From Thermothielavioides terrestris NRRL 8126 (lineage: Eukaryota; Ascomycota; Sordariomycetes; Sordariales; Chaetomiaceae): 64,000 nt of DNA. The notes under the pieces are model-generated. The model saw nothing but the letters and a program-made list of their open reading frames with translations, was not told the DNA's origin and did no database searches. Positions 39,888 to 61,300 of this stretch are shown in pieces. The position numbers and the translations under genes are program-made. The DNA lies in assembly GCF_000226115.1 (NCBI RefSeq), contig NC_016457.1:7688001-7752000 (forward strand). Reading direction: 5' to 3'. Each line of letters opens with the position of its first letter. Position 1 is the first letter of the stretch.

Positions 39888-42203
39888 ATGGCCGAAGTCC
39901 TCGGCGTCGTGGCCAGCGGCATCGCGGTCGCGCAGGCCGCGCAGTCGCTCGGCGGCGCCGTCGTCGCGCTGGCCCGCCTGTGGCGCGAGGTGCGCGACGT
40001 GCCCGACGCCGTCCGCGCCGTCCTCGACGAGCTCGAGCTCGCCGGCGAGGTCGTCGCCGCCATCGAGTCCGAGCTGACTGCAGCGGCGGCGGCGGCGGGG
40101 GCGGCTGGCGTGTCCGAGTCGGGCGTGTCGGCCTTGCACGCTCGCGTCGTGCAGCGCTGTCGCGCGGCTAGGGAGGAGCTGGGTGCGTTGGTGCGCGACC
40201 TCGCGGCGGATATTACCTCGTCGCGCAGGAGGAAGAGGGTGTTGGCTGGGGTCAGGGTGGCGTTGAAGAAGGATGTGTTGGAGGCGTACGAGAAGCGCCT
40301 GCGGAGGGCGCTGCGCATGCTTGATTCGGTCGTTCAGCTGCATCTGGCGTAAGTATCCATCATGTGCTTGCGGAGGCGCGAACGGGGAAGGCGGGGCGCT
40401 GTTGGTGCTTGGAGATATGCTGCAGCTGCTGCTGACTTTGATGATGCCTTAGGTCTGCTCTGAGACGGCAGCCGGAGTTAGTCGCCGCTGAGGTCACCAA
40501 AGTCCTGGCTTTGCGAGGCCCTTCTAAGATGGCAGCGGGCGTACCGCCAAGCGATGAACGTCAGGTCGAAGCCGACGGTGAGGAAGAACAGCAGGCGATG
40601 GTGTCGGCTTCCCGTGCGAGTTCTGCCCGTAGCACACCTGTCGTACTCCGGCGAACCAAGTTTGACTGGGGATTCCTCGGGTTTTCTCTGGTCCAAAAGC
40701 GGTGTGACGGTGTCTTGCTGGCTTCGCAATCTACCAGTACCTGTAAGTGGTACCCATCGCTTGATATCGATGTTGTTTTGGTCTCCATTTGGCGAGTCGC
40801 TGATCTGGACGTAGCGTACCGGTTGCGGTTGTCACCTCCGCAGTGGTTACTGAAAAAGGCCTGGGACCTCCAAATCTCGATGGCATACTCTGGCTGGAAG
40901 ACCTGCTTCCGGCAGTATGTGGTTGTGCCAAACGACTCCGAGATATGGGATGTGTTCCGGCGCTCAGAATCAGAATTTGACGAGCTGCTGAGGCTCTTCA
41001 ACAACGGACTCGCCTCGCCCTTTTCTATGGACACACATGGCCACACCCTGTTGCATGTAAGCAATCTACGTTTTCTCAGCATCTTTGTTACTAGGTCGCT
41101 AAGACGTGACTCTCGATACGTAGTGGGCCATTTCGTTCCGGCCAGAGTTTATCGAGCCCCTGCTACGAATCGGGCTTGATTTCTACGCCAACCCCAGGAA
41201 CGCATTGGATGCTTATCTTCTTACCGAAAACTATTATGGACCTAAAGCAGTGCTTATACACCAGGCCATGCTGTCTCACGGTGTCTACGACGAGGCGGAT
41301 GCTGACACCAGTTGGTGGGCGATTTTGCGCATGTTGGGGAATCCGCAGGTCTTCGACTCCATGCTCGCAAACGTTTTCCCAGACCTGTATCAATGGCCGC
41401 TCGATAGCCGGCTCAGCCGGCTCAGTGAAATCGTCATTGTGCGCGACACAAATATCCGGTTAATTGGCCGATTCTTGCACCCCGACGGCCGTTTCCGACT
41501 GAGCGACCTCCGCAGGCGGGTACCCTGGTACAGCCAGCTCTTCAGACCAACCCACACCGTCTTCGATATGCTCGCTGCCATTTACTTCAAAAAGAGCTAT
41601 GACGCCCAGTGGAGGCAAACCACATATGACCGCGACATGATAGACCTGTGGAACGAGACGCGAATTGCCTTCCGCGACATCGCCGCCACGGCGGACTACT
41701 GCGATCTCTGTTCTGTCAGAAGTAAGAACGGAAGGACGGTACTATGGAGGGAAATGGATTGGATAATCCGGAGGTTGTGTCAGCGGTCGTACTTCTGGGA
41801 GGCTCTCGTCTCCAACTTGCGGCGCTATCGGATCGCCAAACTCGAGATTCATCAGATTGTTCATCAGATTCTTCGACACTGGCTGGAAGATTTGCAAGCG
41901 GGCGGCAAGGATCTTGAGGTATACGGAAGGGCGGAGCTCGCTGCTTTCCGCCGTCACGGCCCACTCCGCTGGTCGAAATTGCCCGAGTGTAAATGGAGCG
42001 GCTTTACGTTTGGATCGCGGCCTGAAGAGTGGAGTCTCACCTGGGAATGGGACCCTGATGTGGAGGGACTGGTGGGAGACTTTTGGGCTTGGACTGAGAA
42101 GTTGGTGGGAGACTCTGGGGTTTGGACTGAAGATCCTCCTCTGCATGTGCCAGGCTCGTGGGTCGATGACGTCGACGATGACTTCGAGGACCGTTGGTGG
42201 TAA
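39888..42203 (+). CDS. Protein with fungal STAND/NACHT-type N-terminal domain, unknown function
   Basis: Exons 39888-40348, 40453-41056 and 41124-42203 give 714 residues. The start MAEVLGVVASGIAVAQAAQSLG, followed by long helices (LARLWREVRDVPDAVRAVLDELELAGEV), is typical of the alpha-helical N-terminal domain found on many fungal NACHT, ankyrin and TPR proteins. No P-loop (GxxxxGK[ST]) or other nucleotide-binding motif follows. The middle and C-terminal parts (DTHGHTLLH-WAISFRPEF, LLRIGLDFYANPRNALDAY, MLGNPQVFDSML) have the spacing of degenerate ankyrin-like repeats. The C-terminus is Trp-rich and acidic (GSWVDDVDDDFEDRWW). The frame is intact right up to the AT-rich island, and the base composition of exons 2 and 3 is less GC-rich than the neighbours. 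Involvement in self/non-self recognition is only inference. Confidence 0.7.
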
Positions 42204-43331
42204 GAGACTAAGGGACCGGTCTCAGATGCCTCGGACAGTGCCTTACCGCGCCACTGGGTAGTGTGAAAATGATCCCTGCCACCGTTTTGCATTGGCAAAT
42301 ACATCCTCCGTTTAGGGGGAGCGTCTTACTGCTCTAAAAATAGTCCCTACACCAATTCCCCGTATCAGTAGCGTGTTGCAACCTACACTGGTGTTATATA
42401 TTGAGAACCATCCCAGTATACATTCTGTTTCTGTTTGTAAAATCTTCTACTATAGTTTTCGTACTCAACTCGTTTGCTATTGCGAAATACATTGCACTAC
42501 CTGTCTATTTCCTAGATACAACTTCGTACTATTGTATAACCTACACTTGGAACAGAGACCTTCAATCTATCGCCCTATCATCTCTGATACGACATCCCCT
42601 ACCAGTACGACACTGTCTTAGTTTTCATAGCACCTCTTAGAATTGCCTATTATCCTCCCGACGCTAGTTATATCTAGGAAGTTGTTTGATATACTACTGT
42701 ATTTTCCGTACTATAACGTTCTACGATAGGAAGTTGCTCTACCTACGACTACCTATTATGAAAAAAAATGTATACCAGTGAGGAAGGCGCTTTGTATATA
42801 TACTCATTTTACAATTAAGGCCATTTTATACTATCCAACGCTTTTTCTTATAGTAGAATTGCTGTATTTTAGAGTATATTTAAGATGTTAAAGGCATCTT
42901 ATATTAAGCGTATCTTTTCTTGCAACTAAGCCAGTAGTGTTGACAATACTAGAATAACTAGGTCTAGTGGCAGTCAAGTACTGTCTATATACTATAAGCA
43001 TCTCAATCCTAGTAGGCTAGTAGTACCTTAGTTTTTATAGTCTACCTTATGCTATTAAGTTATAGTCTCTGATATTATAGTGATAAATATAGCGAAACGT
43101 ATCCGATATTCTAGCAGTAAGATCCGGCTACCTCGACATTGCTACCTCCTTCTTAAGCCCCTTAGACTATAGTTAACCTAGAAGCCTCTAATGACTAGAC
43201 CCTCCTATTAGCTCCGAGCTACCCTAAGGTATACCGAAACTATATAGTCAACTTAATGTAAAACTGGCTCCCTCGCTACCCTAAATGTCCGCTAGTGCTA
43301 TATATATTGAGACTCAGTGTAATAAACCGAT

Positions 43332-43600
43332 TATAAAAACGCCAGTACCCTACCAAGCTTGTAAGACGTCTACTCCGGCTCTAATGCCCCCCCCATTATA
43401 ACTATGTACAATAGACCACCTAACTATAAAAATACCAGTACCTTACTAGGCTTGTAAGACGCTTACTCTAGCTCTAACGCTAGGTTCTTTCTCCCCTCCC
43501 CCCCCTCCCCTAGGCCTATGCTATCCTATCGCCTAGCCAACTATAAAAATGCTAGCACCCCTCTAGGCTTACTGAGACGCTAGCTATAATTGTCCTATCG
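43332..43600. repeat. Three diverged tandem copies of a roughly 95-110 bp unit
   Basis: The unit begins TATAAAAA(C/T) and contains CCAGTACC, CTTGTAAGACG and CTCTAA(T/C)GC. Copies start near 43,332, 43,425 and 43,541. Differences are mainly transitions, fitting RIP decay. Single copies also end in C-runs (CCCCCCC). Confidence 0.6.
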
Positions 43601-43850
43601 CCTTTAGTAGACGCTTAGCTGCTCTATCATCAATGATAGCTCTAGTATCTCCGTAGTCTATAGCCCCTCCCTTATCGCTATTATCGCTATTGGCTATACT
43701 AGCTTCAGTTGCGTTTTTATAGTTGACCGTCTATCTAAGAATCCTATCCTAAAGCAATATAAGGTCAATAGGAATATCTGCCTAGGTAGAGTTGGACTAG
43801 ACTATTGTTTCCCTAGGCTATATATCGCCCTAGACTTACTTAGCATTGTT

Positions 43851-44010
43851 AGGACCTATAGCTAGCTTAGGGTAGTAAAGGGCTATACCTAGCTTAGGGT
43901 AGTAGGGAGCGATAGCTAGCTTAGGGTAGTAAAGGGCTATACCTAGCTTAAGGTAGTTAGGGGCTATACCTAGCTTAGGATTGTTAGGGGCTATAGCCAG
44001 CTTAGATTAT
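43851..44010. repeat. Minisatellite of about six 26-28 bp units
   Basis: Units follow the pattern GGGCTATACCTAGCTTAGGG plus TAGTAA, with C/G, A/G and length variants. At least six head-to-tail copies can be read. There are no spacers, so this is not a CRISPR array. Confidence 0.75.
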
Positions 44011-44211
44011 ATATTGCTATCTTAAGTGGTAGGGGTAAGAAGCTAGTTCTTTAAACGCTTCTTAGGTAGCTAGGTTTTTATACTCTAGCTACTAACGTCG
44101 TTCCGTTTCTTTGGGGCTAGTGTAGCTAGTTGCTTAGTGTTATTTTCATCGTCGACGTCCCCCTCCTCCTTGATAAACATTTGCTCTAGTACAAAGATTA
44201 GCCTACTATAG

Positions 44212-44216
44212 AAAAA
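44212..44216. repeat. Target-site duplication AAAAA (other copy 51,798-51,802)
   Basis: Five A precede the TG of the left LTR and five A follow the CA of the right LTR, the normal 5-bp duplication for copia integration. An A-run is low in information, so this is supportive rather than decisive on its own. Confidence 0.75.
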
Positions 44217-44398
44217 TGAGAAGAGCAGCGAAGTGGGGCCATGCAGGATGCAGAGGCATGTGTATTGAGAGAGGTGCTCCTCTCAAGCTGGGTGGGAGGA
44301 GCGCCGAGGTCTATATACATGTGTGGGCAGAGCTGACATGTGCCCCCTGAGCGCAGGGAGCCTGGCAGATAGAGTCACGTGTGCACTAGCACGCGACA
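44217..44398 (-). repeat. 3' LTR of the copia element
   Basis: 182 bp, TGAGAAGAGCAGCG to GCACGCGACA on the plus strand. It is identical to the other LTR at 51,616-51,797. It contains TCTATATACATG, a possible TATA element in either direction. Confidence 0.95.
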
Positions 44399-44410
44399 CA
44401 CCCCCCAGAC
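44399..44410 (-). other. Polypurine tract of the copia element
   Basis: On the minus strand the bases just upstream of the 3' LTR read GTCTGGGGGGTG and then the LTR TGTCGCG. A G-run touching the 3' LTR is the expected primer for plus-strand DNA synthesis. Confidence 0.7.
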
Positions 44411-45045
44411 AGACTCTCAGGAGGCTGTCTGTGGAACACGCATGCTGGGCACTGACTCTGGAGCTCGCACTGCCAGGCGCATTGAACTGTGGCCTCCGGT
44501 ATTGATCCCACCATTGCGCGCAGCCGCCGCCATTGTGCAAGTTGTCCGCGCGCCATTGTGTACGCGTTGTGGCGCGTGCGTTGGCGAATTGCGTGCTGCG
44601 CTGAATGCGGTCAGACCCAGGGGCGCCAAAGTTGACATTCAGGGGCGCTGTCGTTGGCATTGTTGCGAGCGCCATTGATCGCATTGTGCGCAGTTCCCAA
44701 TTGCGCAGCGCGTTCCATCCCCATCCTCCATTCAGGCGCGTATCTTGAATCGTGCCGCCTCGATTGTGGGTGCAGGTTGCGCAATTGAGCATTGCGATCA
44801 TTCGCATGTGTGCCATTGTGGCCTTTGTTGCCCAACGTCTTGAATGCACGCCCACCATTGCTACCCATTGTTGCATTCGCGCCATGCAGACAATACCGCA
44901 GTGCCGCAGGCCGGTCGATGGCTGCACTCCTGGAAGTATTTAATCATGGTGAGTGCGCCTCAAACCATCTCCCGAACTCTTCCTCTGCAGACCGCGAGCA
45001 ACAGCAGCAGCATCAGCAACAACAACAACATCAACAACAACAACC
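44411..45045. other. CATTG-rich region inside the element, upstream of the antisense gene
   Basis: Between the 3' LTR and the start of the plus-strand gene, the short motif CATTG (often GCCATTGTG, and CAATTG/TTGCGC variants) recurs many times between about 44,485 and 44,880. The spacing is irregular, so it is not a simple tandem repeat. It may be the promoter of the antisense gene. A CAACAACAACATCAACAACAA tract (about 45,015-45,044) lies just before the ATG. Confidence 0.5.
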
Positions 45046-45959
45046 ATGCCGTCCTCTGCTCGCCTCGCCGCTCTCGAGAAGGCCCGCGCCGCCAAGGCGG
45101 CCAAGAACAAGCCTCCCCCGCTCCCGGCCACCCCCACCAAGGCTGGCGCTGGCGCCAGCAAGAAGTGAGCACACCACAATCTGCCCGACTGGCGCGGCGC
45201 GTACATCCGCGTCTCTGACACTTGCAGCAGGACCCCCGCCACGCCGAAGACCCCCTCCAAGCGTGCGGCGCCCCCCTCCTCCTCCTCCTCCTCTTCGGAG
45301 GATGAGGAGGAGGAGGGCGCCCTGAGAGAGCAGCCCTGCCTGGGTTGCCTGAAGTCCGCCATGCGCGGCAAGAGCTCTGGGGAGTGCCGGGAGGCCCCCG
45401 GCAAAGCGGCCCGGTGCGCGCGCTGTGCGCGCGGCAAGAAGTGTCGCTCCATGTAAGTCTGTCAGCACAGTTGCAAGGCGCACGGTACTGATGAATCAGC
45501 CCCGCGAGTGTGCTCCCCGCCGCCAAGCACTTCCTGGCCCTGATGCAGGGGCGCCAGGAGCCCAAGGCCAATCTCGTGAGTACAAATGAAAAGACAAAGG
45601 AAAAGAGCTAGTCTGACTGTGTGTGGTAGGACCAGAAGACGCTGCGCGCCACCCTGCGCGCCCTCCTCGCCATGGAGGGCGAGGACGCCGACGCCGAGGA
45701 TGACGACGACGATGACGACGAGCGCGCGCCCGCGCCCGCCAAGGGCAAGGGCAAGGGCAAGGCAAAGGCGGCCGCGCCCACCAAGAAGTCCAAGAAGGCC
45801 AAGAAGGCCAAGAAGGAGGAGAGCGAGGAGGAGGACGAGGATGAGGACGAGAGCGAGGAGGAGGCTGCTCCGGGCTTTGACCCGGAGGCGCTGGCGCGTG
45901 GTGTGGCGGCGGCGGTGCTGGCCGCCATGACTCCCAAGAAGAAGAAGGGTGGCAAGTAG
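45046..45959 (+). CDS. Four-exon cysteine-cluster, acidic/Lys-rich protein carried antisense in the retrotransposon
   Basis: Exons 45046-45164, 45228-45452, 45500-45575 and 45630-45959 give 249 residues (248 if the NAGNAG acceptor of exon 2 is used three bases later). Donors are GTGAGC, GTAAGT and GTGAGT. Regions in order: basic N-terminus (ARLAALEKARAAKAAKNK), poly-Ser/Glu acidic segment, a six-Cys cluster CX2CX12CX9CX2CX5C at C77, C80, C93, C103, C106 and C112 (EQPCLGCLKSAM, RCARCARGKKC), a helix with FLALMQGRQEP, then an acidic run of Asp, KGKGKGKAKAAAPTKKSKK repeats, a second Glu/Asp-rich stretch and GFDPEALARGVAAAVLAAM. The Cys pattern suggests a zinc site and nucleic-acid binding, but matches no named class I can be sure of. 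The gene lies inside the LTRs on the strand opposite to pol, between the pol stop and the polypurine tract. Function unknown. Confidence 0.8.
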
Positions 45960-46046
45960 TTCCGCGTTGTTGTTTGTTGTTTCGCGGGTGCGGGCACCCC
46001 CCAGTCTGTTTTGCGCCGGCGTGCGCTCCTGTGTTTAGTTTGTTTT

Positions 46047-49000
46047 TTACTCAAGCCTTGCGTTCCTGTCCCCCTGATCGTCTCCCTGCACCATATGACG
46101 CACATCCTGCAGGTTGAGGAGCTCCCTGAAGTGCTCGAACTTCTGGCGAGTCAACACCTTCGTAAGCCCATCTGCAGGCATCTCAGCAGTTGGCAAGTAC
46201 GCGACCTCGAAAGATCCCTTCGCGTGTTCCTGACGCAGCCACATGTTGTGGATGTCAACATGACGCAGGCGAGTGCTGATGCGTTCGTTCTCTCCCACCA
46301 CGAGCCGGATGGTCTGCGTGTTGTCACAGAACACAGTCCAAGGCACACCCAGCTCAAGTTGCAGGTCGCTGAGGAAACGCTTGAACGCCATTGTCTCCCG
46401 CGCTGCGGTGGACAGAGCGAGGAGCTCCGCCTCCGTAGACGAGGTGGTGACTGTATCTTGGCGCGCAGCCTTCCAATGAACGAGCCCACCGAACAGAGAG
46501 ATGAGATAGCCTTGTGACGACCTGCGCGTATCAGGATCATCCGCATGCGACGCGTCCCCTGCGATGAGCAAGATTTGCGTGGGAGCAGCATCCTGCGGCA
46601 CACCCCCGAACTGAATAGCGAGGAAGCGCGTGCCAAACAGGTAGGAGATTGCATGCTTTGCAGCATCAATGTGTGTCCCCGAGGGGTTCGTCAGGAAGTG
46701 CGAGAGCAACGATGCCGGGAACGCGACCTCCGCGCGCAGTACGACCGCGGCGTAGAGTAGCGATCCAACAAGCTCCTGGAACAGCCTGATCTGCGCTCGA
46801 GTGGCAGTGCCAGTGAACTTGCGGAGTTCCATTACAGGGAGAGGGATGCTTGGAAAGGTGATTTGATCCGCGAGACCGAAGCGCTTCGCAATCTTCTCGA
46901 TGTACTGGTCAAGGCAGAGCCAGATCTTGCGTTGCGCGCGGTCGCGGATCACCCTGATGCCCGTCGCGGATCACCCTGATGCCCAGGAACCAAGCCACGT
47001 CCCCCTTTTCGTGCACTTCGTACTTCGCTTTCAGAGCGTCGATGATCCTCTGAGCTGTCTCCGCGTGGTCTCTGTGGTAGAAGACTAGGTAGTCGTCCAC
47101 GTAGAACAGCACGAGCACGCGCCGTTGGCGATCGAAGAACAAGCATGGCTCCTCAGGCGAAGCTGTGAGGCCGAGCTTCCGAAGTGTGCCGGAGAACTCT
47201 CGGTACCAGAGCAACGGAGACTCTCGCAAGCCGTACAGAGCTCTCTGCAGTTCCACAAGAAATCCAGGCTCTTCGAACCCCTCAGGCATCTCGCAAACAA
47301 CACCCTCAGGCAGGTCCGCATTCAAGAACGCCTGCGCTACGTCGAACTGCTTGACCTCAAGATCAAACTGCGCGGCGATAGCCATCATTGTGCGGAACGA
47401 GCGCGCTGCGAGTGTGGCTGCATAAGTGCTTTGCAGAGTAGTGAGCTCCTGAAGGTCGCCTCGAACGCAGATGCGAGACTTGCACTTCTCGAGGTTGCCA
47501 TTCTGATCGAACTTGTAGACGAAAACCCACTTCAGAGGGAGTGGTCTTCCTTTGAAGGTCTCGCGCCGAATCTTGCGCCATGTCTTCCTGTTGACGAGAT
47601 TGCGAATCTCTTCCTCAGCCGCTTTGATGAACTCGGGCCCTTGAGGGTGGTTGGCGAGATCCCTCCAGCGCTTAGGAAGCTTGGCGAGGTCGTCAAAATG
47701 CACCCGGGGCCTGCTTGGCGTTGCCCCAGGACGCGCGTCACGATGTTGGCGGACTGCCGCCGCGAAAACCGCATGCAATGTGCGGTGCTGGATGCTGTCG
47801 CCCTCCTGCAGAGCGATTACAGGGTCATCCAAAAATGTGTGGCTGAACGAATGCCACGCGTGCTGATCTGGTACGTCGATGCTCTCCTCATGGTACATGG
47901 GGGCTGCGAAGCACACCAGACCGCCGCTTCCGCCTGCACCGCCGCCGGGAGACTGTCTACGGATCCGTCTTGAGTAACGAGTTGGTGGTCCGTATACCTT
48001 GCGCACGTACTTGCGCTTCTCCCTCGCTGGCGTGGCTGCGGGTGTTCCAGAATCAGGCTGAGAACCATGGTTTGAGGCGTCTTCCCAGTCGTCTGGAGCC
48101 TCTGGCTGATCGCCAGGGCGGTCGACCTCCTCTTCACTGCTAGGAGTATCGACTGCGGCAGCACTTGCCGTCGTGCTGCCCTGGCTGGCACTCCTAGTTG
48201 TGCCGCCAGCGACGCTGCTACTGGCGTCTCCGATAACTGCATCAGGGGCCTCCGATGATGCAGTTCCCACCGGTCTGCTGTCACTGCTAGCACCGTGATC
48301 AGCAGGGGGGCCGCTCCCTCCAAAACCGTCCGGGCGTTCCTGGCGCGGCTCCGGTGTTGGTTCTGGAGTGTAAAGACCACCAGTGGGCTCCTCACCCGAA
48401 CTCTGGCCGCGATGCTCGAGTACTTCCGCACCCCCCAGACAGGATGGAGAGTGGGGAGGAGCCTGCCCTTCCGGTTCCCGTTCAGTCACACCCCCCAGAT
48501 GTCCTGGAGAGCCGGGAACCGTCACTGGGTCTTCATGGGCATCTGTAACTCCGAACGGCACTGCCTCGGCGTCCCGAGGCTCTATGGGGAGTTCGATGAG
48601 CTCAACAACCTTTCTGGCGACTGCCACCGATTGAGCATCAAGCTGCTCCTCTCCCTCCCGGTAGAACGTGCGTTCGTCAAAGGTCACGTTGCGCGTTGTG
48701 ATGACCTTCCTGAGTTTCGGTACCCAGATGCGGTAAATGTTGGACGCCCTGTATCCAACAAGATACCCGATGTGCGCTCTGGGCTTGACCTTCCCAGCAC
48801 GCCTCTCAATCCCCTTTTCGCGTTCCTTCGTCAGCGGGTACGCTCGGCAGCCGTACGCATAAACGCCGCCCCAGTTAGGGCGCAGGTCGGCAGTCAGGGA
48901 ATGCACGAGACCGGGCTGATACCAGCGAAACCAGTGTCTGAACCAAGAGTCGAGCACCTCGTTCGGTGAGCGGTAGTTGCGAGCGCGACTTGGGCTTATG

Positions 49001-51438
49001 CCGTGCAAGTACGCAGCTGCAACCGTCGACTCTGGCCACAGGTTCTGAGGAAGTCCGGCGCCCGTGAGCATTGCAAGGCTCTTTGTGATAAGTTCTTTGC
49101 CTGCGCGTTCTGAACCGCCGTTGGGCTCCTTGGTATCCGAAGGCGTAACCTCCAAGTCGATGCCCTGCTCCTGCGCCCAGAGCTCGTACGCTGTGTATCC
49201 CTTGATGCCAATGACACTGGTGTCGCCATCCTGCCTGATCTTGCAGATGGGCAGCCCGAATTGGCGTTTCACCCAGCGTTCGAAGCGGACGAGCTCATCG
49301 TACACACTGTCGTGCGTCTTGCGTATGAGTGGAGTCGCGAAAAGCTTCCCACTGTACTCGTCCTTGATGACCAGCAGCCAGTTCGAGCCGTCAAGTGCCC
49401 TCGGAAAGTCGAACAGGTCCCAAGAGACCCTCCAAAATGGGCGTGGTGACGGCTTCGATGGTGGGCGGCGCGAAATAACCTGTTCCGCGTATGCCTGCGC
49501 GCATACCTCGCATTCCAGTCTGCGAGGCCCGCGAATCCGCACACCTCTGGCGTTCAAGACGAGATGTTCCAGCGCCTCTGAACTCAGATGACCAGATCTG
49601 ATGTGCCAGAGAGCAGCTGGGTCTTCTCTCTCTGGGAGCGGGTCCTTGGAGGGCCTGCTCCTCCCAAAGTTCTTCACAACTGCAGCGCTCAAAGTCACAA
49701 GTCCGGCAAAGCTTCTGGGGAGCACCCGAAGGGCATCAGAGTAGGAGGAAAGAGCATTGTATTGCAAGAAGGTCAGGTTGAACTTCTCGACCAGCTGCCT
49801 GAGTACAATACTCTTCTCCAAAGTTCCCCAACGCAGCGTGCAATCCAGACCGCAGTACCAAGCGCCCTGCGCTCGAAGGCGTCTCTCAGAGACAATGTTG
49901 ACGTGAAAGCCCTCGACGACAGCAACGTTGTCTATGACAAGGTCCTCAGTGTTCGGGCCGCGCGCGCCGTTCAAAACGTTCTTGATGATCCATTTGCCGC
50001 GGCCAGAGATTGGGAAGGATGTGGTGCCTGCCTCAACAGTCTCACCGCTCGTCTTGACGAACGTGCCAGGGACAAGGAGAGCCCTGTCATTGACGAGATT
50101 GACCGCTCCACAGTTGTCAAACAGAATGCACTTGCTGAGCGGGTGTGGGCCAAACTCGAGAGATGCGAACACGCCACGCGCTCCTTCGAGCTCGCTTGCG
50201 ATCGCTGGGTCGATGACAGCGTGCACCTGGAGCGCTCCCGGAAATGAAGGACCCGCGCCACTATTGGAACTAGTGGTCTTGGCGTTTGACGATGCGTTCT
50301 GGATCTTCCAACCGAGCTTCTGGAGCTCCACTCGAAGGTCGTTCCAGCGCTCCTTGGCGAATCGTTGGCGCACTGCATTCACCGCGTCGTTTGGGAGCGT
50401 CACGCCGTTCAGGGATTCCCCTGTCAGAGCGTACCGAAGTTGCCGACATTCCGAGGGAAACCACCAGTGGCGAAAAGTCTTCGGCTTGCACGGGCAGTCG
50501 CGGTTCTTCTTGCGCTTCTGACTGCCCTTCTGACCGTTCTGCGCTCCTGGAAGCACGGGGTAGGCTCCAGGCTTCGGGTGGACCACCGCTTCAGCCTGGA
50601 GGATCGCCTCGAGTGAGAGAGCCAAGTCGAGAAGGGTTGGTCCTTTGCCGCCGAGCTTCTCAGTCACACTGATATCCTTCAGCATGCGAGTCGCCCACTC
50701 TGGATCCAAGCGTCTCTGCACAGTCTTGAGGAATGTGGTGACGGCTGTTGCGTCGGTGACTGCGGCGATGTTGGCCGCCCTTGCGCGGTGGAGGACCGAC
50801 ATGTACTCGAGAATCCAGGTCCTGGGTTCGACGCCGCTCTGGCTGCCTCTGGCAAGGACAGTTGCGTACTCCTCGGCAAGCGCAGTGAAAGTAGCGCTGT
50901 TGGAGGGTGCGATAATCTTGCGCAGCGTCTGTATAAACCCGCGTGTGCCGGTGACGTTCTCGGCCTCCATGATGTCGTGTGCGGTGTGTGCGTAGCGGTC
51001 GCTGACAGACACGTTGATCATCTCGCGGAGCTTGTTGACGGCACGGAACGCCGCAGTGTCGATGGCGGACTTCGAGAACGCCTCGCACAGCTTGAGGAAT
51101 TCACGGCGGATCTCCTCCTCAGTAGGATTGGTTGACTGAGGTTCCTCGCCACGGGTGGTGGGATCGGCTGCCTTCCAGGCTTGCAGTGCAGTGTGCCACG
51201 CCTGAAGATGGCGGTCCTGGACCGCCTGACGTGCCGCACCCTGGGTGGGCTGCACAGGAAGGCCGAGCATCTCAGCCTCGGTGGCGAGCTCGGTGTCTGG
51301 GTCGATGATGTGCCAGACACGCAGGTTGTTGGCCTCTTGGCGAACAGCAGAGATCCATCTTGGCCAGTCCTTGGGGCTGTCGAGGGTTGGAAGCGCTGCA
51401 ACAGCAACGGTGACGGTTTTCTCAGTTTCGAGTGTCAT
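46047..51438 (-). CDS. Copia gag-pol polyprotein, interrupted by a frameshift
   Basis: The main frame (51,438-46,909, 1509 codons) starts MTLETEKTVTVAVAALP. Gag-like residues 1-300; a non-standard knuckle C-x-C-x6-H-x6-C at 315-331; protease region with DNCGA at 441-445; integrase zinc site (H612, H617, C643, C646); integrase acidic residues in WDLFDF, QDGDTS and NGGSERAG; a Ser/Pro/Glu-rich linker 950-1140; reverse transcriptase 1290-1490 with FDVAQAFLNADL and FYVDDYLVF. After residue 1492 a 22-bp tandem duplication (46,941-46,983) shifts the frame to an early stop. The RNase H part (about 46,952-46,047) continues in another frame with TSSTEAELLALS, FCDNTQTIRLV and HVDIHNMWLRQE. So the sequence encodes every domain but cannot make the whole polyprotein in one frame. 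Confidence 0.93.
46941..46983. repeat. 22-bp-period tandem duplication breaking pol
   Basis: The 21-base string starting GTCGCGGATC and ending CCTGATGCC occurs at 46,941-46,961 and again at 46,963-46,983. The period of 22 is not a multiple of three. The peptide GIRVIRD is encoded by both copies, in different frames. This is a simple slippage-type duplication. Confidence 0.95.
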
Positions 51439-51581
51439 CTTGAAGCAAACTGAGGTGTGCTGCGTTGTTCAGACTGAACGATGGGGGTGATGTGAACTTG
51501 TGGGAGTTGTTGACGATCGAGAAAACTGGAAGTGGTTGTTGGAGAAAAGAAGAAGGATGGCCCCAACTGGGCTACACCGCT
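51439..51581 (-). other. Leader of the copia element between primer-binding site and gag
   Basis: The short untranslated leader expected between the primer-binding site and the gag ATG at 51,438. It contains CCTTCTTCTTTTCTCC on the minus strand. No other feature is seen. Confidence 0.5.
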
Positions 51582-51615
51582 GTTATGAGTGTTGTGCGCG
51601 AACCGGGCTCATAAC
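51582..51615 (-). promoter_or_regulatory. Primer-binding site matching initiator tRNA-Met anticodon arm, in an inverted repeat
   Basis: Directly inside the 5' LTR the plus strand reads GGGCTCATAAC (51,605-51,615), the sequence of the anticodon stem-loop of eukaryotic initiator tRNA-Met. The element RNA would carry its complement, GTTATGAGCCC. Internal (half-tRNA) priming of this kind is known for copia-type elements. The octamers GTTATGAG (51,582-51,589) and CTCATAAC (51,608-51,615) form a perfect inverted repeat with an 18-nt loop. Confidence 0.8.
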
Positions 51616-51797
51616 TGAGAAGAGCAGCGAAGTGGGGCCATGCAGGATGCAGAGGCATGTGTATTGAGAGAGGTGCTCCTCTCAAGCTGGGTGGGAGGAG
51701 CGCCGAGGTCTATATACATGTGTGGGCAGAGCTGACATGTGCCCCCTGAGCGCAGGGAGCCTGGCAGATAGAGTCACGTGTGCACTAGCACGCGACA
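51616..51797 (-). repeat. 5' LTR of the copia element
   Basis: 182 bp, identical to 44,217-44,398. It should hold the element's promoter (TATATA in CATGTATATAGA on the minus strand) and drive transcription leftwards into gag-pol. Confidence 0.95.
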
Positions 51798-52020
51798 AAA
51801 AATCATAATAGTATAGGGCGACTTACTCTTCTTAGGTAGCTATTTTTTCGTACCCTAGTTGCTAGCGCCCTTCTGTTTTTTCGAGGTTAGTATAACCAGT
51901 TGCTTAGCGTCACTGTTACTCTTATCGTCGACGTCTTTATACTCCTTAGCAAGCATTTTCTCTAATACTAAGATCAACCTACTATAAAAAAAACATAGCA
52001 ATATAAGGCGACTTACTCTT
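51798..52020. repeat. Tandem roughly 185-bp repeat split by the copia insertion
   Basis: Sequence left of the element (44,061-44,216: CTTAGGTAGC ... GTCGACGTC ... CCTACTATA) resembles sequence right of it (51,831-51,990) in the same order and spacing. The right-flank piece 51,803-51,830 (ending GGGCGACTTACTCTT) matches the end of the second copy (about 51,995-52,020). The element therefore inserted inside one unit of an older tandem repeat. Confidence 0.7.
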
Positions 52021-52735
52021 CTTTGCTACACTTATTCTAGAGCTAGTTGTAACCTTGTCTATAGGTAGTTTAATCACTAGTCGCAACCTCGCTTTGATCG
52101 GCGGCTTATACTTATTAAGCTTAATCCTTTAGCCGTCATTAGTCTATATCTTAGCTAAGAATCGTAGGGCTATCTCTGTAGCTTCTAGATACGCCTTTTT
52201 CTAGGCCTTCTAGGCCCTACTAGTAGCGTTATTGCCAATATTAGCTTCGTCGTAGTCCAGGAGTAATAGTATAAAACTATAGATATTATGTAAGGTAGGC
52301 CCTCTGTCGAAGCTCCTTAGACTAGGGCCGGGTACGCTATTAAGTAGCTTTTTTATAGCTCTATGCCACCTAAGTACAGACTTGTTAAAGGATCGGCTAA
52401 ACGAGTTCTCCCTACTAGTGTAAGTCTTAGCAATATCGTTTTCGACTTTCTAGGCTAGTTTCTTACTTATTTTTACAACCAACGCTTTCTCCTCTACTAT
52501 TGCGCCTCTTCGAGTCCTATCTACTATTAAAGTTATATCCTAGTTATTAGTAAACTAGCTATAAGATATAGAAACTTACCTAGAATCGAGTATATAACAC
52601 TGATATAAAAACGATTATAGTGGTATTATTGCTACTAATGTTGTTTAAAACGAGCTAGAGGAGGAAAGGTTGGATTAGCGAAGCGTTAGCGAAATGAAAA
52701 AAAGTTTAGTTCAAAAGAGTAAAGCTTCTAGTGGT

Positions 52736-52825
52736 TAGAAGAAGGGAGAGACTACGTTAGTAGAAGGAGGGAGAAACTATGTTGGTAGAAGGAGGGAAAG
52801 ACCACGTTGGTAGAAGAAGATTACG
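52736..52825. repeat. Minisatellite, about three and a half 25-bp units
   Basis: Units read TAGAAGGAGGGAGAAACTA plus TGTTGG with transition differences, head to tail. It is purine-rich on the plus strand and gives no spaced pattern. Confidence 0.7.
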
Positions 52826-55489
52826 ATAGTTAGCGAACTAGAAGATTGGAAAACCTTAAGGTACTTATATAGTATTGTCGAGGTACTTGTTTAGAAATGG
52901 GCTAAAGTTAGCCAATTTAGTTAAGTGTAAAAAGGTTAGAAGTAGATAGGTCTATCGGTAAACACTCTATAGGTTAGAAGACGGGGAAGTCTAATACCGT
53001 TAAGCATCGAGTGTTCGATATTAGCAGGTAGAGGATCACTAGTAATATATTCAGGGACCGCTATAGGCTACTCGCCCTTGTTGGCTTAGGCTAGCGTCAA
53101 GGATAGCCTATAGTAGTCTACCTTACTATAGAAACCTAGGTCGGTAGTAGTTGTTGAAAGATCCTATATATATAATCAACTAGGTAGAGGCGAAGCTCGA
53201 ATATAAAATGACTCTCTTATACCCTTCAACCTATCTATCTCCGTCGCCTATCCCAAGCCAGATCTATACTCAAGTCTGCTAGCTATATAGGACTCTACTT
53301 GCACTATATCCTACGATCTATCCCCTTCCCTATAGGCATATCTATATTAAAGTAAACGAAATTTTATATTCGAATCCTGCTATATCCCTAGGGATATATT
53401 AGTCCTATATAGTAGTACGAAAAGGCTAACTAACCATTCTTATATCAAGATATCAGTATATATCTATCTATTCGCCCCCCTAACTAAATACCCTAGAACT
53501 GCCCTAGCCAAAATTCATAGTACATAGCAAGGCAATACTAACGATATTCGTATCGTAAATAGCAATAAATCTAGTATCACTCGCTATCTCCTAGCAACGT
53601 TCTAATAGAGGGGAAGTTTGGTTTATATACATCGATGTCCGGGTCGTCTATATAGATAAACTAACGCTTCTCCACCCTCAACCTCTTAGATATACGAGCT
53701 TTGAAGAACCTTATAATACTACGGGGATAGGGATAGTAGCGACTATACCAATCAGAGCTATAGATCGTCTTAAAGTAGCTAATAAACGAAGAGCAGTCAA
53801 CGTTAAACTCTCTCTTCGAGTCTAGATCGTCGAGGTAGTTGATATACAACTTAGTACAATATCTAAGCTCAATAAACAGTACTAGATATACTCCTATTAG
53901 ACACTACTAGGCTTTTTATAATAGGGAATTCGACTTATATTTACACTAGTTCTATATATCCTCCTTGCTCTTTACAATATTGAGATAATTATTAACGAAA
54001 TCGAAGACCTTAATAAACAACTATAGACTGAACTAACGCTCAAGCTTAGAGCAAATGATCTTTAGGTTGCTATAGCTCTTATACACTAGACTCTCGCTAG
54101 CTATCCTCTAGTTCAATACCTAGATTAGGTAACGATAGGAGTAAGTATTAAGCTGAATAGTCTATTAGATATTTTATAGCTTACAATTAGATTGTTGATA
54201 ATCTATAGTTGCTAGTTCGCTATATTGCCCCTAACTCTTAATACTATATAATCCTAGACAAACTGGTCCTATTTACAGTTGAGGTCGCTTATATAGAAAT
54301 CGACGATTTTATTCTAGGTCTCGTCGATCAGAGTTAGAAGGTAAGAGATCCAAAAGTTATATTCTATTGTCTTAAGTCGTATATAGATCGTATCCTTAGT
54401 TTCCTTATTCAAGGCCTATATATATTTACGTTTATTGCTCCTAGGCTACTAGGACGAGTTATAGATTCGCTCCTATAAAAAAGAGTATTAGACACTTGGT
54501 TTAGGTAAAGAAGAGGAACGCCATTTATATCTAGTCTAGTGAAGAAATCCTAGAGGCTCTACTCTACGTCTACTTCCTACTTAGCGTTAAATGGATTCTC
54601 TTGCCCTAGCTTACCTATAAATATATTGGAGCTATTGTCCTTATTGTACCTAGCGCTATTGCTAGCCAACACCGCGTAGTTGCCACTCTAAGAATTTGCC
54701 TAACTATCAATTTACGTAGCTGGTACAACTACTAAAGATTCTAGTCTAGTACACTAGCCACCGCTCTAGCCACTACGCACTATATCGCTAGTTATTATAG
54801 TGGACAGGGCTATACTAAGAACAATACAATTGTATTTGGTATACCTTTTACAATAAGGATGGTCGGTAGAGGATAGGGCGTTAGAGGGCTTGAGCCAATT
54901 AGTAATAACAACATCGAGTCATCGATATAAGAGCGGCAAGCTAAAAATAACCCGACAATTGAGCGACTATAGCGAGAATTTCCAGGCTTTAATAGTAAGA
55001 AAATGGTACCTAGGTTAGGAAGGCGCGCCCCTTTGTAGTATAAGTAAGGTCGATAGCGATAGCAGGGCGCCTACGTAGGGCTAAGTACAGTGGTTGGTAA
55101 TACCTTAGGGTTTTTATAGCCTACCCATTGTCTAGTCCCTAAGAGCTATAATGTCGGAAACCTCTTGTCCTAGAGCCTACTATCCTAGTAGCAACCCTAG
55201 CAACCCAATTTAACCGCTATACTAGAACGCCGATTCAACTTTTAGCACTGACCTAGCTTTTACTAGATATAGCGTTTCTACAACTCTACTAGCGCTAGCT
55301 AACTACGTATTCTAAAACATACCTTTAATAGCTCAATCGATTTCAATACCGAATAGAAGCGCTATAAAGACGCTAAAGCTACTACGAAAAAACCTGCCTA
55401 GCAAGTGCTAAACCCCAATGGCCATTAAGTACTAAACCTCAACGGCTATACTATATAAGATGGTCCTTGCTATACGAAAGCAGGCTACC

Positions 55490-58210
55490 GTCGCCCCCTA
55501 GTTAAAGAATAGCTACTTAGTATAGAGTTCAACGATAGAATCGAGTCTCTACTAGATATACTATTCGACTAGGAACTAGACGATCTCGTAGACTTGCTAT
55601 TTACACTGGACGAGGAGCTAGAGTAAACCGACACTCTAACAACTATAAAAAATATCTAGGAGGAGGTCGCAATAGCGGAATAGACTAAACCCTAGACTAG
55701 TGAGGTCCAAGGCGAAGAAGCTTTACCCCCGTCCCTATCCCCTCTTCTTGATAACCTTTTTACACCTAATATATTAGTTGCTTAGGAGGATATTGGATTT
55801 AATGACCTAGGGGACGAGGTTAGCCTAAGCGTCGAATCTACGTTAAACGATATTATGCTAGACTTCTCCAAGCCTATATATTATAAACCTAAGCCTTTCA
55901 ATATATCGCTATTCGCCTTCGCCCTTGCACTATAGGAGAAGAAACATAATATCTCGTAGGCGGCTTATATATACCTTCTTAAGGTTCTTTAGCTTGCAAC
56001 GTCGTTAGAGGAGTTCTAGTGTATTCCCTACTAGAAAGATACGCTACTTCGACAAATAAAGGATATCCTTCCGCTATCGACATTATGATACTCGACTATA
56101 AAGCTAGACTAAGTGTAGATGCCCTCGAGAACCTATATAGAAACTATAGTCCTTGCGTTCGATATAGAGAGCTTGGCTATTAACCTTCTTAGTTCTACCG
56201 TTCTTTCAAACAAGATGTACTAGGGGTTTGTACAGGTTGTTGATAGCCCTGTTCTAGAGCTGTAGCAAGTACGGTAGTAGGGTAAAAGCGTTCGATCGAT
56301 AAGTAGGAAATTCTTCAAGTATATCGACGGAGGACCAATCCTCCTATCTAACTTCGTATACTAGAGGTGTAAGACTACTAAGCCATTATAGCTATATAGA
56401 TTAGGCAAGTGCAAAAATCTATATATAGGGAGGGTCTAGTACTATAGTATCGATACAAGGACAGTATACCTGTAAAATACTATTGTAAAGATATAGTGGG
56501 TATTTAAATGGTTAAAGCTTCCGCTAAGCTAGTAGACGGCTATAGCCACCACAGTGTCGGCCAACCTTAACCCTAGGTCAACCGAGCTAGTAATAGAGCT
56601 TAATAACGATTTTTCACTATACCTAGCCTATATTATCTAGCATCTCCCTAGTATAGTCCTTGACTATAAGTTTAGTCCAACTGACGTTGACCGCTAAGCT
56701 ACAATAGGCCAGTTCGTTATCCGGTATATCTACAACAACAAGACTAGCAATATATAGCTAGTACGCTTGACCTCCCTACACTAGGCCGAATTGGAAATTG
56801 GCGAGCAAGGCCACAATACTATTATCGCTAGGTTCGTAGGAGAGAATAGGGTCTCTTTGCTATAGGCTCTCTTCTACGATACATTTGGTCTCTACAACAA
56901 TATATACTAAGTAACTATAGGCTTTTACTTAATAGGGCTTTTCCTTAAGGAGTAGCTAAGGGATATAAGTAAAGAGATCTTCCTACTTACCCTAGGCCTA
57001 TATAGTATAGACCTCTTGGACATTGTTAAGTCCCTATTTTATATAAGAAGTCTAGACACTGGACGCTAGCTTAGGATTGGTAATCGCGATCTCTTTGTCT
57101 ATAGTTTTGTCGCTTATATTATTGGCGATATACCGTCCTAATTCAAACTTATTAGGTCTAAGGGGCATTAAGCACTTCGTCTTTATTATAGTTGCAATAT
57201 CCCTCTCGACTAGTAGACAGACCTTAACTACAATATTATTAGCAATGGGCGGTACTATATATAGCACTTGGACAATATCGCTTTTATCTAGTCTTGGCCT
57301 ACTAAGAAGGCAAGGGAAGATACGGAGAGAAAGCTTAGGATCGTTTATAACGGCGAGCTCGTTACTAATATTACCTAGCTATTTCTATACCTCGATATCC
57401 TATAGTCGCGTCCGATTAACGTAGCGTATTCTAAGTTCGTAGGCATTGCCTACGTTATACTCGATACCCTTTTTATACTAGATGGTCTACTACTCGAGCT
57501 AGCGAAGAATGAACTTGCTATAGTATACTAGAATTTTATATTCCCTCCTAGCTAGTCGGGGCTATAGAACTATAAGATATATCGTAGTTTATATAAGATG
57601 AACAAGTATACCCAAAGTTCGATTGTTATACCTATTATTCTTTGCTACTAGCTCGAGCCTTATTACATTAGATCCGACCTTTATAAGCTTATCGTTCAGT
57701 TTGCGCTACAATTCCTTAATATAACCAACTAGTTCCGTTATAATATAGCCTTCGTTGGAGCCTAGGACTAGGTCGTCGCCGCTTTTTAGAGTTTTAGTAT
57801 CTCTATTATTACAATCTTTAGCAGAAGCAATATTAACTACGATTTTATATTTACTACTCTAAATAGTCGAAAGGCAGTATAGTTCCTCTTCTATATACTT
57901 AGAGAGGTAAAAAAACTGGCTACGATCCAGAGCGAAGGAAAGTGACGATAAACTGAGATACTAAGAACCCACAGTACTATATAGACTTTATTCTCTATAG
58001 CTAGCACGTTGACCACCATAATGCCGTTTCCGCCCCCGCCCCTATCGGTGGTTTCTACTATATCTACTATATACTAGCGTAAATTGGCTAAATAGAAATC
58101 TAACGAGTACCTCAATATAAAGGGCTTACTAAATATCTACTAAGTCCTCTACTTGCTATAAGATTATAATGAATATAGATATTGCTTAACTCTAACCTTT
58201 ATTAGCGAAA
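55490..58210 (+). pseudogene. RIP-decayed long reading frame, probably a transposon gene
   Basis: One frame (codon starts at 55,831, 56,143 and so on) stays protein-like for about 900 codons, but is punctured by many stops. These are mainly TAG, some TAA and very few TGA. Readable peptides between stops include KSVRSISRKFFKYIDGGPIL, LGKCKNLYIGRV, NPRSTELVIELNNDFSL, GQFVIRYIYNNKTSN and FVGENRVSLL. TAG is what C-to-T change makes from CAG, or G-to-A from TGG, so the pattern fits RIP of a coding sequence. The family of the encoded protein was not recognised; a DNA-transposon protein is a guess. Confidence 0.65.
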
Positions 58211-59650
58211 CGAAGTATAAGTGAGTTTTTATATAGCCCTCCTATATCTCTAGTAATTTTAAGGACTACTAATGAAATATTGTAGCTACTAGAGATTATA
58301 CTCAAGATATTATAGCAATAAACCATCGTGACTTGGTACTAACGCTTATCTAGCGTAAGAATGAACGGCAAACGATATCTTTTGCCCTAGTAGGCTATTT
58401 CGAAAACCAGTTTCCTGAAATCTATAATGCGTTCTATATAATTTGGTGTAGCTGCCTAAAATTCGCTACTATTTACAACCTGTACTATAGTAAAAACGAG
58501 GAAACTGAAGAAGATTGCTCTGCCTTAGAAATTGCACTAGACGCGTTATATTGTAAACCACTTACGCTTTATAGCTTATCGCTAGCGTAGGTTAGTAGTA
58601 GATGGGATCTATTACTTAATGTACTAAGTCCCCGTTAAATCGACAATGGCAGTGAGTTTATATAGCTCTTCTAGGTAGTAGTCGCCAGGGATTACAACTG
58701 GCTAATCGTAATGTCTTAGGGCAAGGGCAGTTTCCAATAGGTAGAGAAGCTATTATTTGCGACTAGGTAGGCTAATAGCAATAAGGCGGCTACCCTAACT
58801 ATATAGCTAACCTGTCTATAGGGAATCATCTACTAGGAGGGTTTTTACACTAGGCTATTTTATCTATGTCTTAGGCGACAATAAGAAGGTATAGACAGTT
58901 GTATGCCTCGATAGTATCTTCACCTTCTTCTAGACTGGCACTATATATCTCTTTGCTATAGTAACGTATATAGAGGCTAAGACGACATTCCTATAAAAGG
59001 AGTTTATCCTTAAGTGCCTAATCTATACTCTTATAGATAGGCGAGAAATCATTGGGCTTCCCTATATCGGCTCTGACTGGATCTAGATAGTGCCCTGTAA
59101 AGAGAAGGGTTCGTATATCTATATCTACTATAATATCTACTTTATATAATATTAGGTAGACTATATAGGGTTTGCTAAATCTAAGTGTAAATTCCGCTTA
59201 GTGTATTTTCCTTCGTCCTAGCTAGACCTATATAGGCTTAGTGGGCGTAGACTTTATAGGTTTTGACTTATCTAAGTACGAAATCCGCTTAGTGTATAGC
59301 TCTTTGTGCTTGCTAGACTTATAAAGGCTTAGTAGGCCAACTGCAATCTATAGACCTAAAGGTGATATATCCTAGTGTATTAGGGGGCAGATTAGCCTAC
59401 CTTCTAAGTATAAAATTCTAATTAGCTGCTATTCCCTTAGCTGCCTACTGCACTTGCCTAACCTATATAGTCCGGCACCTTAGGGAATTTTAAAGCTCCT
59501 GGATCGCTTTCCTATAGCAATTGCCTAATCGAACCTCTTCCTACTACACTACCTGAGTTAGCCTTAACTTTAATACAATAAGACGCTCCCTACTATGTAA
59601 CATCGCTATTATATTAGCTTGGCGTTGTACTATTACCCTTTTTCGTAGTA

Positions 59651-60115
59651 GGTTTAGATCTAGACGACTTCGCCAACTGACGGCTCCTAGCATTAATGCG
59701 CCCTATTGACTAATGGTCTACCTAATATAGAATTCCAGATTCTTGCTACTTCCTGTCTTGATACCTAAGGTACTTCCCAACCTTTAATACTACCGATAGC
59801 GCGGTTAGATTTTTACATTTAGCTACGCCGCTTTGACACTGATATATATACTATAGTAGTAGATTCCACTGTTCTATTTTTTTATAGTAGGTTCAGATCT
59901 AGACGACGACTTCGCCAACTGATAGCTCCTAGTATTGATATATCCTACTGATTGACGGTCTACCTACTATAGATCTCTAGATTCTTGCTACTTCCTTATA
60001 TTTCCTAACCCTATAGTACTACCGACAGCGTAGTCAGTTTTTTACACTTAGCTACCTCCCCTTAACACTGATATATATAGTAGATTCAGTTCTATTATTA
60101 CCAAGGTACTAACTT
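59651..60115. repeat. Tandem duplication of a roughly 240-bp block
   Basis: GGTTTAGATC (59,651) and GGTTCAGATC (59,890) start two copies, which both continue through TAGACGAC, CTTCGCCAACTGA, GGTCTACCTA, GATTCTTGCTACTTCCT, ACTACCGA and ACACTGATATATA. Copies differ mostly by transitions and small indels. Confidence 0.75.
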
Positions 60116-61300
60116 TCCCTACGCTAGGTTTCACAGTATCTATACTGTTTCTAGCTACTCGCTAATTTGCTTAGTGTATATTATTGACAATGACTTTTTA
60201 TAGTTGCCCTACTGATATCCTAGATCGACAATAGTTTATATTCCTATCGCCTATAATAGTGTTCTAGTAAGTTGCTTTCGCCTATTATATAGCGGTATAA
60301 CAGCCTCTAACATCTCCTATGTATTCGCTACTGCTCAACTAGTAGGATTTTTATAGTTATAGCTTCGACTAACAATATAAGTTTCTGACCCCCGTTTTTC
60401 CACGATATACCTAACTCTTTTTCTAGCAACAGCTTAGATCCTAACAAGGCTATACCTCTATGGTAAGATCCCTCTGGCCTAAGCATTTTTATACTATAAT
60501 AAAAGGAGGATATAAATGGTATTGCTAACGACTATCAGTTAGTTTCTAGTTTACTAATCGCTTTGCCCTATAGTATTATCCTAGATTGCTTCGCCCTATA
60601 GCAACAACTAGGCTATCGCTATAATGGCTAGCGACCCTCCTATAGAATACTTTCTAAACTCTATAGTTAGTGCTTCCTATATCTAGCTTCCTTTTTACTA
60701 TTAGCTAATCGTTCGCTAGGCCGCTCCGCTATATTATTTCTTGACACTGATATACTATAGTATCTACACCAGTGTTCTATCTTCTCCCTCGATTGCTATA
60801 AGCGAACGCCGAAGTAACTCGTAGCGTCGCACCTATATCTTAAGTATATAGGTGAGTCTCGTTCTATAGCGATTGACTAGATACTTAGAAAGCTGACCGA
60901 TATACGGCAACAGTACTAATATCCGCCTACATTGACGATAAGGTATATACGTAATAGCTAGGCTGTTAGCAGTATAAAACAACGTGGTCGGGATAATTGG
61001 GATGGCTAGAATGGTCGGGGTAGCGGGTAGTGGATAGTAGGGTCGGAGGGCGGGGTCGGGTTAGCTAAGGACTGGGCGCCCTACAACTATAGAATGAATA
61101 CGCCTAGCCAGTTATCCTTATAGTGCAAATACGGCCTCTATAGCCACGACCACTTCTATACTCTAAGATGATCAGGGTATAAAAAACGGCTATTTAAGAA
61201 AACTATCTAAAGACGCTAGTACCATCGTCAACTTACAGATAGATCTTGCTAATACGAAATTATCGTAGATATAAATTTACAGCGTAAGCAATCTCGACAA

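Follow-up and report, generated by a model that had tools for sequence, protein, structure and literature searches.

A predicted four-exon antisense gene in a copia retrotransposon of Thermothielavioides terrestris bears the mark of purifying selection

We describe here a four-exon gene carried antisense within a copia retrotransposon of Thermothielavioides terrestris NRRL 8126. The window, a 64-kb stretch of contig NC_016457.1, contains a complete copia element on the minus strand (44217-51797); the gene lies on the plus strand (45046-45959), between the pol stop and the 3' long terminal repeat (LTR), and its predicted product has 249 residues (Table 1). The gene is more than a chance open frame: its exon-intron layout is kept in 18 of the 20 older copies of the element that were fetched, and the selection detected among such copies falls in the spliced frame. 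It predates the split of two subfamilies of the element. We consider it rather probable that the gene serves this element family as a functional accessory gene with introns and acts on the element's own cycle, and a multi-intron antisense gene would then be a credible working part of a retrotransposon.

All three introns are of the GT..AG type and carry branch-like sequences (CTGAC, CTGAT and CTGAC) that start 12-17 nt before their 3' ends. The product runs from an Ala/Lys-rich N terminus through a Ser/acidic tract and a cysteine cluster to acidic and Lys-rich tracts; the six cysteines are residues 77, 80, 93, 103, 106 and 112, spaced CX2C-X12-C-X9-C-X2-C-X5-C. An initial annotation of the same DNA had already placed a four-exon gene with good splice signals inside the LTRs, between the pol stop and the polypurine tract, and had described this cluster together with the acidic and Lys-rich tracts; the position of the gene and the cysteine spacing are as it gave them. 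The NCBI gene model THITE_2120895 (P0001, 165 aa), compared by eye, crosses introns 2 and 3 identically and starts inside exon 2.

A protein search of the T. terrestris genome, capped at 99 scored candidates, gave 146 exon matches. Each of the 19 young copies detected (L009-L027, the window copy included), which are nearly identical to one another, has the gene, and its ATG lies 829 bp from the LTR start in the 17 that have an exact LTR-start match, a one-base LTR variant having blocked that match in the other two. Over ~1.88 kb the young copies vary at only two positions, one in the LTR (2/19) and one in exon 4 (6/19); the latter is the only coding variant, a G to T change at 45678 in the Gly157 codon GGC, which replaces Gly with Cys. 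Four exons and three introns are in place in 18 of the 20 older copies, the other two being partial (L045, L055), and one further exon-1 fragment on the same contig lies outside this set. The antisense introns have thus come through retrotransposition. In the sense genomic RNA they are present as their reverse complement, which should escape the spliceosome and be copied intact by reverse transcription. The initial annotation had reasoned in the same way and had proposed a search for further copies with the gene and its introns at the same place; both age classes agree with it, and the absence of the gene from other family members, which it had named as a ground for refutation, is contradicted by all 19 young copies and, at least in part, by all 20 older ones.

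The 18 complete older copies show 388-575 C-to-T plus G-to-A changes, as against 0-34 reverse transitions and 6-89 transversions, a pattern that is the signature of repeat-induced point mutation (RIP). In every one of the 18 the start codon reads ATA and the frame is interrupted by 4-6 stops; numerous splice donors are altered as well, and these copies are thus dead. The length of their coding sequence is divisible by three in 18 of 18. Seven of them make up subfamily B, in which intron 3 has 55 or 58 nt; the nine copies of subfamily A proper have a single shared exon difference and are therefore uninformative on selection. Two older copies, L047 and L054 (and also L039), have subfamily-B-like indels upstream and an A-like gene. 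The low exon divergence of L047/L054 (2/750) was at first a candidate for strong constraint, but was set aside on account of their upstream indels (1, 3 and 11 nt) of subfamily B; this combination makes them look like recombinants, and suggests recombination between the subfamilies, perhaps at reverse transcription.

In the selection analysis we counted changes that RIP cannot produce, that is, transversions, T-to-C and A-to-G; where such changes are common to several copies, they should mostly date from before RIP, when the elements were alive. The exons hold 38 differences common to at least four of the seven subfamily-B copies, distributed 10/5/23 over codon positions 1/2/3. Seventeen are synonymous, as against 7.6 expected when the same substitutions are placed at random (P<=0.0005; replicate P values of 0.0002, none of 2000 shuffles, and 0.0005), which corresponds to an omega-like ratio (nonsynonymous to synonymous changes relative to the null) of 0.31. 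Sharing thresholds of one to five copies gave the same outcome (ratio 0.25-0.35), and transversions alone gave P<=0.024 at these thresholds. Along the protein, the signal is found in residues 71-150, which hold the cysteines (P 0.013, 22 sites), and in residues 151-249, where the ratio falls to 0.16 (P 0.004, 10 sites). As judged from these sequence comparisons, purifying selection acted on the spliced frame in the active period of the family, and neutral codon substitution, which would have spoken against the initial annotation, is disfavoured.

The introns tell a similar story. None of the 14 RIP-impossible intron differences falls in a splice signal, with signals making up 42 of the 164 intron positions (P 0.013). 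In subfamily B, intron 3 is 1 or 4 nt longer and exon 4 is still in frame; given these length shifts and the selection found separately in the C-terminal part, splicing must have preceded the reading of exon 4. In the seven subfamily-B copies, every change at the six Cys codons is RIP-type or synonymous, alone or combined. RIP leaves a usable record here, and the shared RIP-impossible changes indicate that both the antisense frame, as spliced, and its splice signals were under selection. That the frame is a chance product of GC-rich sequence, with a sense-strand gene not yet recognised on the other strand, is highly improbable: long open frames on the minus strand do extend over the region, but the same test gave P 0.73, 0.26 and 0.995 for the minus frames and 0.23, 0.996 and 0.07 for the unspliced plus frames (none of six at P<0.05), and P 0.34 for the minus-strand open reading frame (ORF) at 44283-44939, and any frame running through intron 3 would be disrupted by its indels of +1 or +4 nt. 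With the signal in the spliced frame and the minus frames non-significant, we rejected both a chance frame and a minus-strand gene.

The sole match outside T. terrestris was P0004 (BT67DRAFT_434178) from Trichocladium antarcticum (Chaetomiaceae), with 36% identity over 63% of the query; the protein searches used all reach relatives with short exact words only, and the one that gave P0004 scored the best 7996 candidates by shared words. P0004 has a six-Cys plan, CX2CX12CX8CX2CX6C, that is nearly that of the window gene, and by eye its N terminus and acidic/Lys-rich tail are similar. In the T. terrestris genome itself, the 99 scored candidates include no clear copy that lies elsewhere than in the element family, the remaining matches (E >= 0.045) being unexamined. 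When P0004 was searched against this genome, no match was obtained at E 0.01 and the window gene itself was missed, so that this blank says nothing on host relatives.

These matches bear on the origin of the gene, for which the initial annotation had offered either captured host cargo or an accessory factor encoded by the element. That a host gene was captured in reverse orientation and is passively carried seems unlikely to us. The introns and the high GC content at third codon positions (0.67/0.56/0.89 for positions 1/2/3 of the spliced frame) do resemble a host gene, and P0004, which comes from a different genus, may itself belong to its host; but the gene is found in both subfamilies, its frame was under selection during transmission of the element, and the scored candidates of its own genome include no clear outside copy. 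Recent capture we rejected, as the gene is older than the subfamily split and its frame was selected. The gene, which may once have begun as a host gene, is a standing part of the element; recent host cargo is not supported, and the initial interpretation as a whole is partly supported.

We suggest that the antisense gene would be transcribed from a candidate promoter of its own (the TATTTAA sequence, followed by a CAA-rich leader) and then spliced, and that the spliced mRNA would yield a nuclear protein of 249 residues. Zinc is a probable ligand of its cysteine cluster, which would also contact nucleic acid or a partner, and the charged tracts, acidic and Lys-rich, may attach to chromatin. 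The protein could then act in trans on the element, either on the transcription of copies that lie in AT-rich chromatin or on a nuclear step of integration, an action that would be comparable to that of other antisense retroelement regulators; we infer that its role is probably nuclear regulation. Copy-number control and evasion of silencing, which the initial annotation had put forward as examples, are conceivable roles of the same kind. An element with 19 near-identical copies offers a test system for the role of such a gene.

Two further explanations concern what the selection acted on. The antisense RNA might be what matters and the frame be incidental, in that it pairs with the genomic RNA at its 3' end and limits copy number via double-stranded RNA or interference. 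Non-coding antisense retroelement transcripts exist, and an RNA role for antisense ORFs is kept open in the sections of PMC7264820 that treat them; we regard such a role as quite improbable here, since selection tracks the spliced codons (23 of 38 changes at third positions) and the six unspliced frames are non-significant, although both roles could coexist. Alternatively, the protein might serve the host or another step, for example in defence against rival elements or in stress response, and have been kept by host-level selection. In the present tests, selection at the level of the host would look like selection at the level of the element, but every complete copy that was found lies within an element, RIP has killed the 18 complete older copies, and no domesticated single copy was found among the 99 scored candidates, which makes a benefit to the host rather unlikely.

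In 18 of the 19 young copies the 500-bp flank on the 3' side has a GC content below 0.5 (median 0.35), L066 with 0.69 being the one that departs from this, as against 4 of 19 readable grid points; a first count that included the masked grid point L098 gave 5 of 20, and the Fisher P of 1e-5 belongs to that count. Such flanks are expected if insertions enter AT-rich DNA mutated by RIP or persist there, and we count them in favour of the accessory-gene reading. We can imagine, as a possibility that we nevertheless hold to be doubtful, that the product is a chromatin factor of a new zinc-cluster family with an anti-silencing function, which would allow the element to be expressed from, and to insert into, RIP-mutated AT-rich heterochromatin; the gene would stay intron-bearing because its own strand is never presented to the spliceosome by the genomic RNA. 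If this were true, a fungal copia element would have a split antisense regulatory gene, in a layout comparable to HBZ of human T-lymphotropic virus (HTLV). The 19 young copies, which differ at only two sites, are un-RIPped over the ~1.88-kb stretch, so that their burst is a recent one, later than the last round of effective RIP; it is no demonstration of protection by the gene, as older copies with the same gene were not shielded and were destroyed by RIP.

Several observations weigh against our preferred reading of a functional accessory gene. When a difference has to be common to 6 or to 7 of the 7 copies, only 23 and 10 sites remain and the test is non-significant (P 0.25 and 0.52, respectively; with transversions alone, P 0.54 and 0.90), residues 1-70 lack a selection signal (P 0.53, 6 sites), and some exon indels sit in short repeats that favour multiples of three. 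Selection on the antisense gene is also weaker than on pol of subfamily B, for which the omega-like ratio is 0.03 (46050-46940) and 0.08 (46975-47620); the pol test used four colinear copies of the seven, with the non-colinear L074, L075 and L080 left out and the A stretches L081 and L082 uncounted. No Pfam family scored above cutoff for the product, seven weak families being listed at E 10, and a predicted model of the 49-aa cysteine cluster was weak, with a predicted local distance difference test (pLDDT) score of 71.6 and a predicted template modelling (pTM) score of 0.45, without a match in the PDB; taken together, comparison with Pfam, PDB sequences, AlphaFold and Foldseek, the structure model being of the 49-aa piece, gave no family for the product. 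Antisense transcription and splicing, as well as nuclear location, zinc binding and chromatin binding, are predictions from the sequence. Finally, the AT-rich flanks may come from survival of insertions and not from targeting.

The cysteine cluster resembles the Zn2Cys6 motif (PF00172) in having six Cys in the order CX2C..C..CX2C..C; the second spacing of that motif is about X6, in contrast to X12 in the window cluster, and PF00172 was not among the matches listed at E 10, at which HMMER filters drop most weak matches. As for the gene as a whole, brtn is said to have been reported by Zhao et al. 2011 as an antisense gene of Boty-like elements of Botrytis cinerea, and HBZ of HTLV-1 is spliced and encodes a basic leucine zipper (bZIP) protein.

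The layout of an antisense gene between pol and the 3' LTR is already known in plants and in Botrytis. In the relevant sections of PMC7264820, antisense extra ORFs at this position are an established class in plant LTR elements (aORF-3R) whose functions are unknown, Grande gene23 of maize has its own promoter and a nuclear product, and brtn is listed among the antisense genes between pol and 3' LTR. The likeness of the window gene to maize Grande gene23, rice RIRE2, Silene Retand ORF4/TRP28 and PvRetro13 is one of orientation and position: by its coordinates it is antisense to gag-pol and lies between the pol stop and the 3' LTR. Like that class it is found in most copies and is conserved (19/19 young, 18 complete and 2 partial older copies, omega-like 0.31). 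Antisense TRP28 ORFs occur in 97% of Retand clusters (PMC11963269), and TRP28 is predicted to be DNA-binding (PMC7264820, PMC11963269, in the sections on these ORFs); Retand and Grande are, however, Gypsy-type, and TRP28 (PF04195) was not among the seven weak Pfam families listed for the window product at E 10. With brtn the window gene shares, by description, a filamentous ascomycete LTR element as host and an extra antisense gene at the same place, but the Boty-like host, with gag, ZnF_C2HC, RP, RT, IN and CHROMO domains, is filed as Gypsy (BcGypsy1) in the portions of PMC8365987, PMC4227169, PMC5987419 and PMC7264820 that deal with it, whereas the window element is copia. HBZ is likewise an antisense retroelement gene with a nuclear product, one that is important for the virus life cycle (PMC11963269, in its passage on HTLV-1), and the product of the window gene is presumed to be nuclear; HBZ differs in belonging to a retrovirus and in an antisense promoter situated in the 3' LTR (PMC7264820, in its passage on HTLV), and we claim no homology. 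The main text of PMC11963269 never uses 'intron', that of the fungal copia survey PMC5445492 uses neither 'antisense' nor 'intron', and no title or abstract start in the open-access literature searched describes the T. terrestris element. What differs from the literature examined is the copia host, the three introns, the selection on the spliced frame and a product without a recognised family.

Table 1. Features of the copia element and of its antisense gene in the window.
Feature	Position	Strand	Basis
3' LTR, 182 bp	44217..44398	-	182/182 identity to 5' LTR; AAAAA at both outer sides
Polypurine-tract-like run adjoining the 3' LTR, minus strand CTGGGGGGTG before LTR	44399..44412	-	sequence; putative function
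TATA-like TATTTAA ~108 bp before ATG; candidate own promoter of the antisense gene	44937..44943	+	sequence only
CAA/AAC-rich 5' leader, ends CAACC before ATG	44991..45045	+	sequence
Exon 1, Ala/Lys-rich N terminus	45046..45164	+	spliced translation; aa 1-70 without detectable selection
Intron 1, 63 nt, GTGAGC..CTGAC..CAG	45165..45227	+	63 nt in 18/18 complete older copies
Exon 2; encodes the Ser/acidic tract and the whole six-Cys cluster (CX2CX12CX9CX2CX5C)	45228..45452	+	sequence
Intron 2, 47 nt, GTAAGT..CTGAT..CAG	45453..45499	+	47 nt in 18/18 complete older copies
Exon 3	45500..45575	+	spliced translation
Intron 3, 54 nt, GTGAGT..CTGAC..TAG	45576..45629	+	54 nt in 11/18, 55 or 58 nt in 7/18 complete older copies
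Exon 4; encodes acidic and Lys-rich tracts and the C terminus, with stop codon TAG	45630..45959	+	aa 151-249 omega-like 0.16, P 0.004
3' part of pol, out of frame with the rest via a short tandem duplication in the window copy	46047..46970	-	ORF list; omega-like 0.03 vs subfamily B
gag-pol frame, 1519 aa; integrase-core-like, SH3-like and RVT_2 domains	46909..51468	-	Pfam
5' LTR of the copia element	51616..51797	-	182/182 identity to 3' LTR

The assignment of the element to Ty1/copia follows from its domains and its ends. In a Pfam comparison of the gag-pol frame, RVT_2 was found at residues 1306-1502 (E 1.5e-27) and a retroviral SH3-like domain at residues 864-936 (E 1.5e-14), with a weak integrase core below cutoff at residues 675-771 (E 0.021); an integrase-core-like and an SH3-like domain before RVT_2 is the copia order. 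The LTRs have TG..CA ends and are flanked on both sides by the 5-bp target duplication AAAAA. The sequence after the 5' LTR presumably resembles the anticodon arm of the initiator tRNA; pattern searches for a host sequence matching this region gave none.

The last pol frame ends at 46047, and a short tandem duplication at 46909-46990 splits the pol frame of the window copy. The shorter pol frame is seen in 4 of 19 young pol matches and a longer one in others; the spacing of the LTRs is 7399 in 4 of the 18 young copies with both LTRs listed, and 7377 or 7378 in 14. Among older copies, the 5' leader of the antisense gene differs in length by 3-9 nt in some, and in L048, L049 and L053 some 8-9 kb separate the gene from the pol match closest to it, as compared to the usual ~1.1 kb, probably owing to nested insertions if, as assumed, both belong to the same copy. 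The window element lies in an AT-rich block (about 42000-62000); its flanks at 44055-44216 and 51825-51992 share an AT-rich repeat that is 77% identical, and the AT-rich flank also holds an array of 27-bp tandem repeats at 43812-44000.
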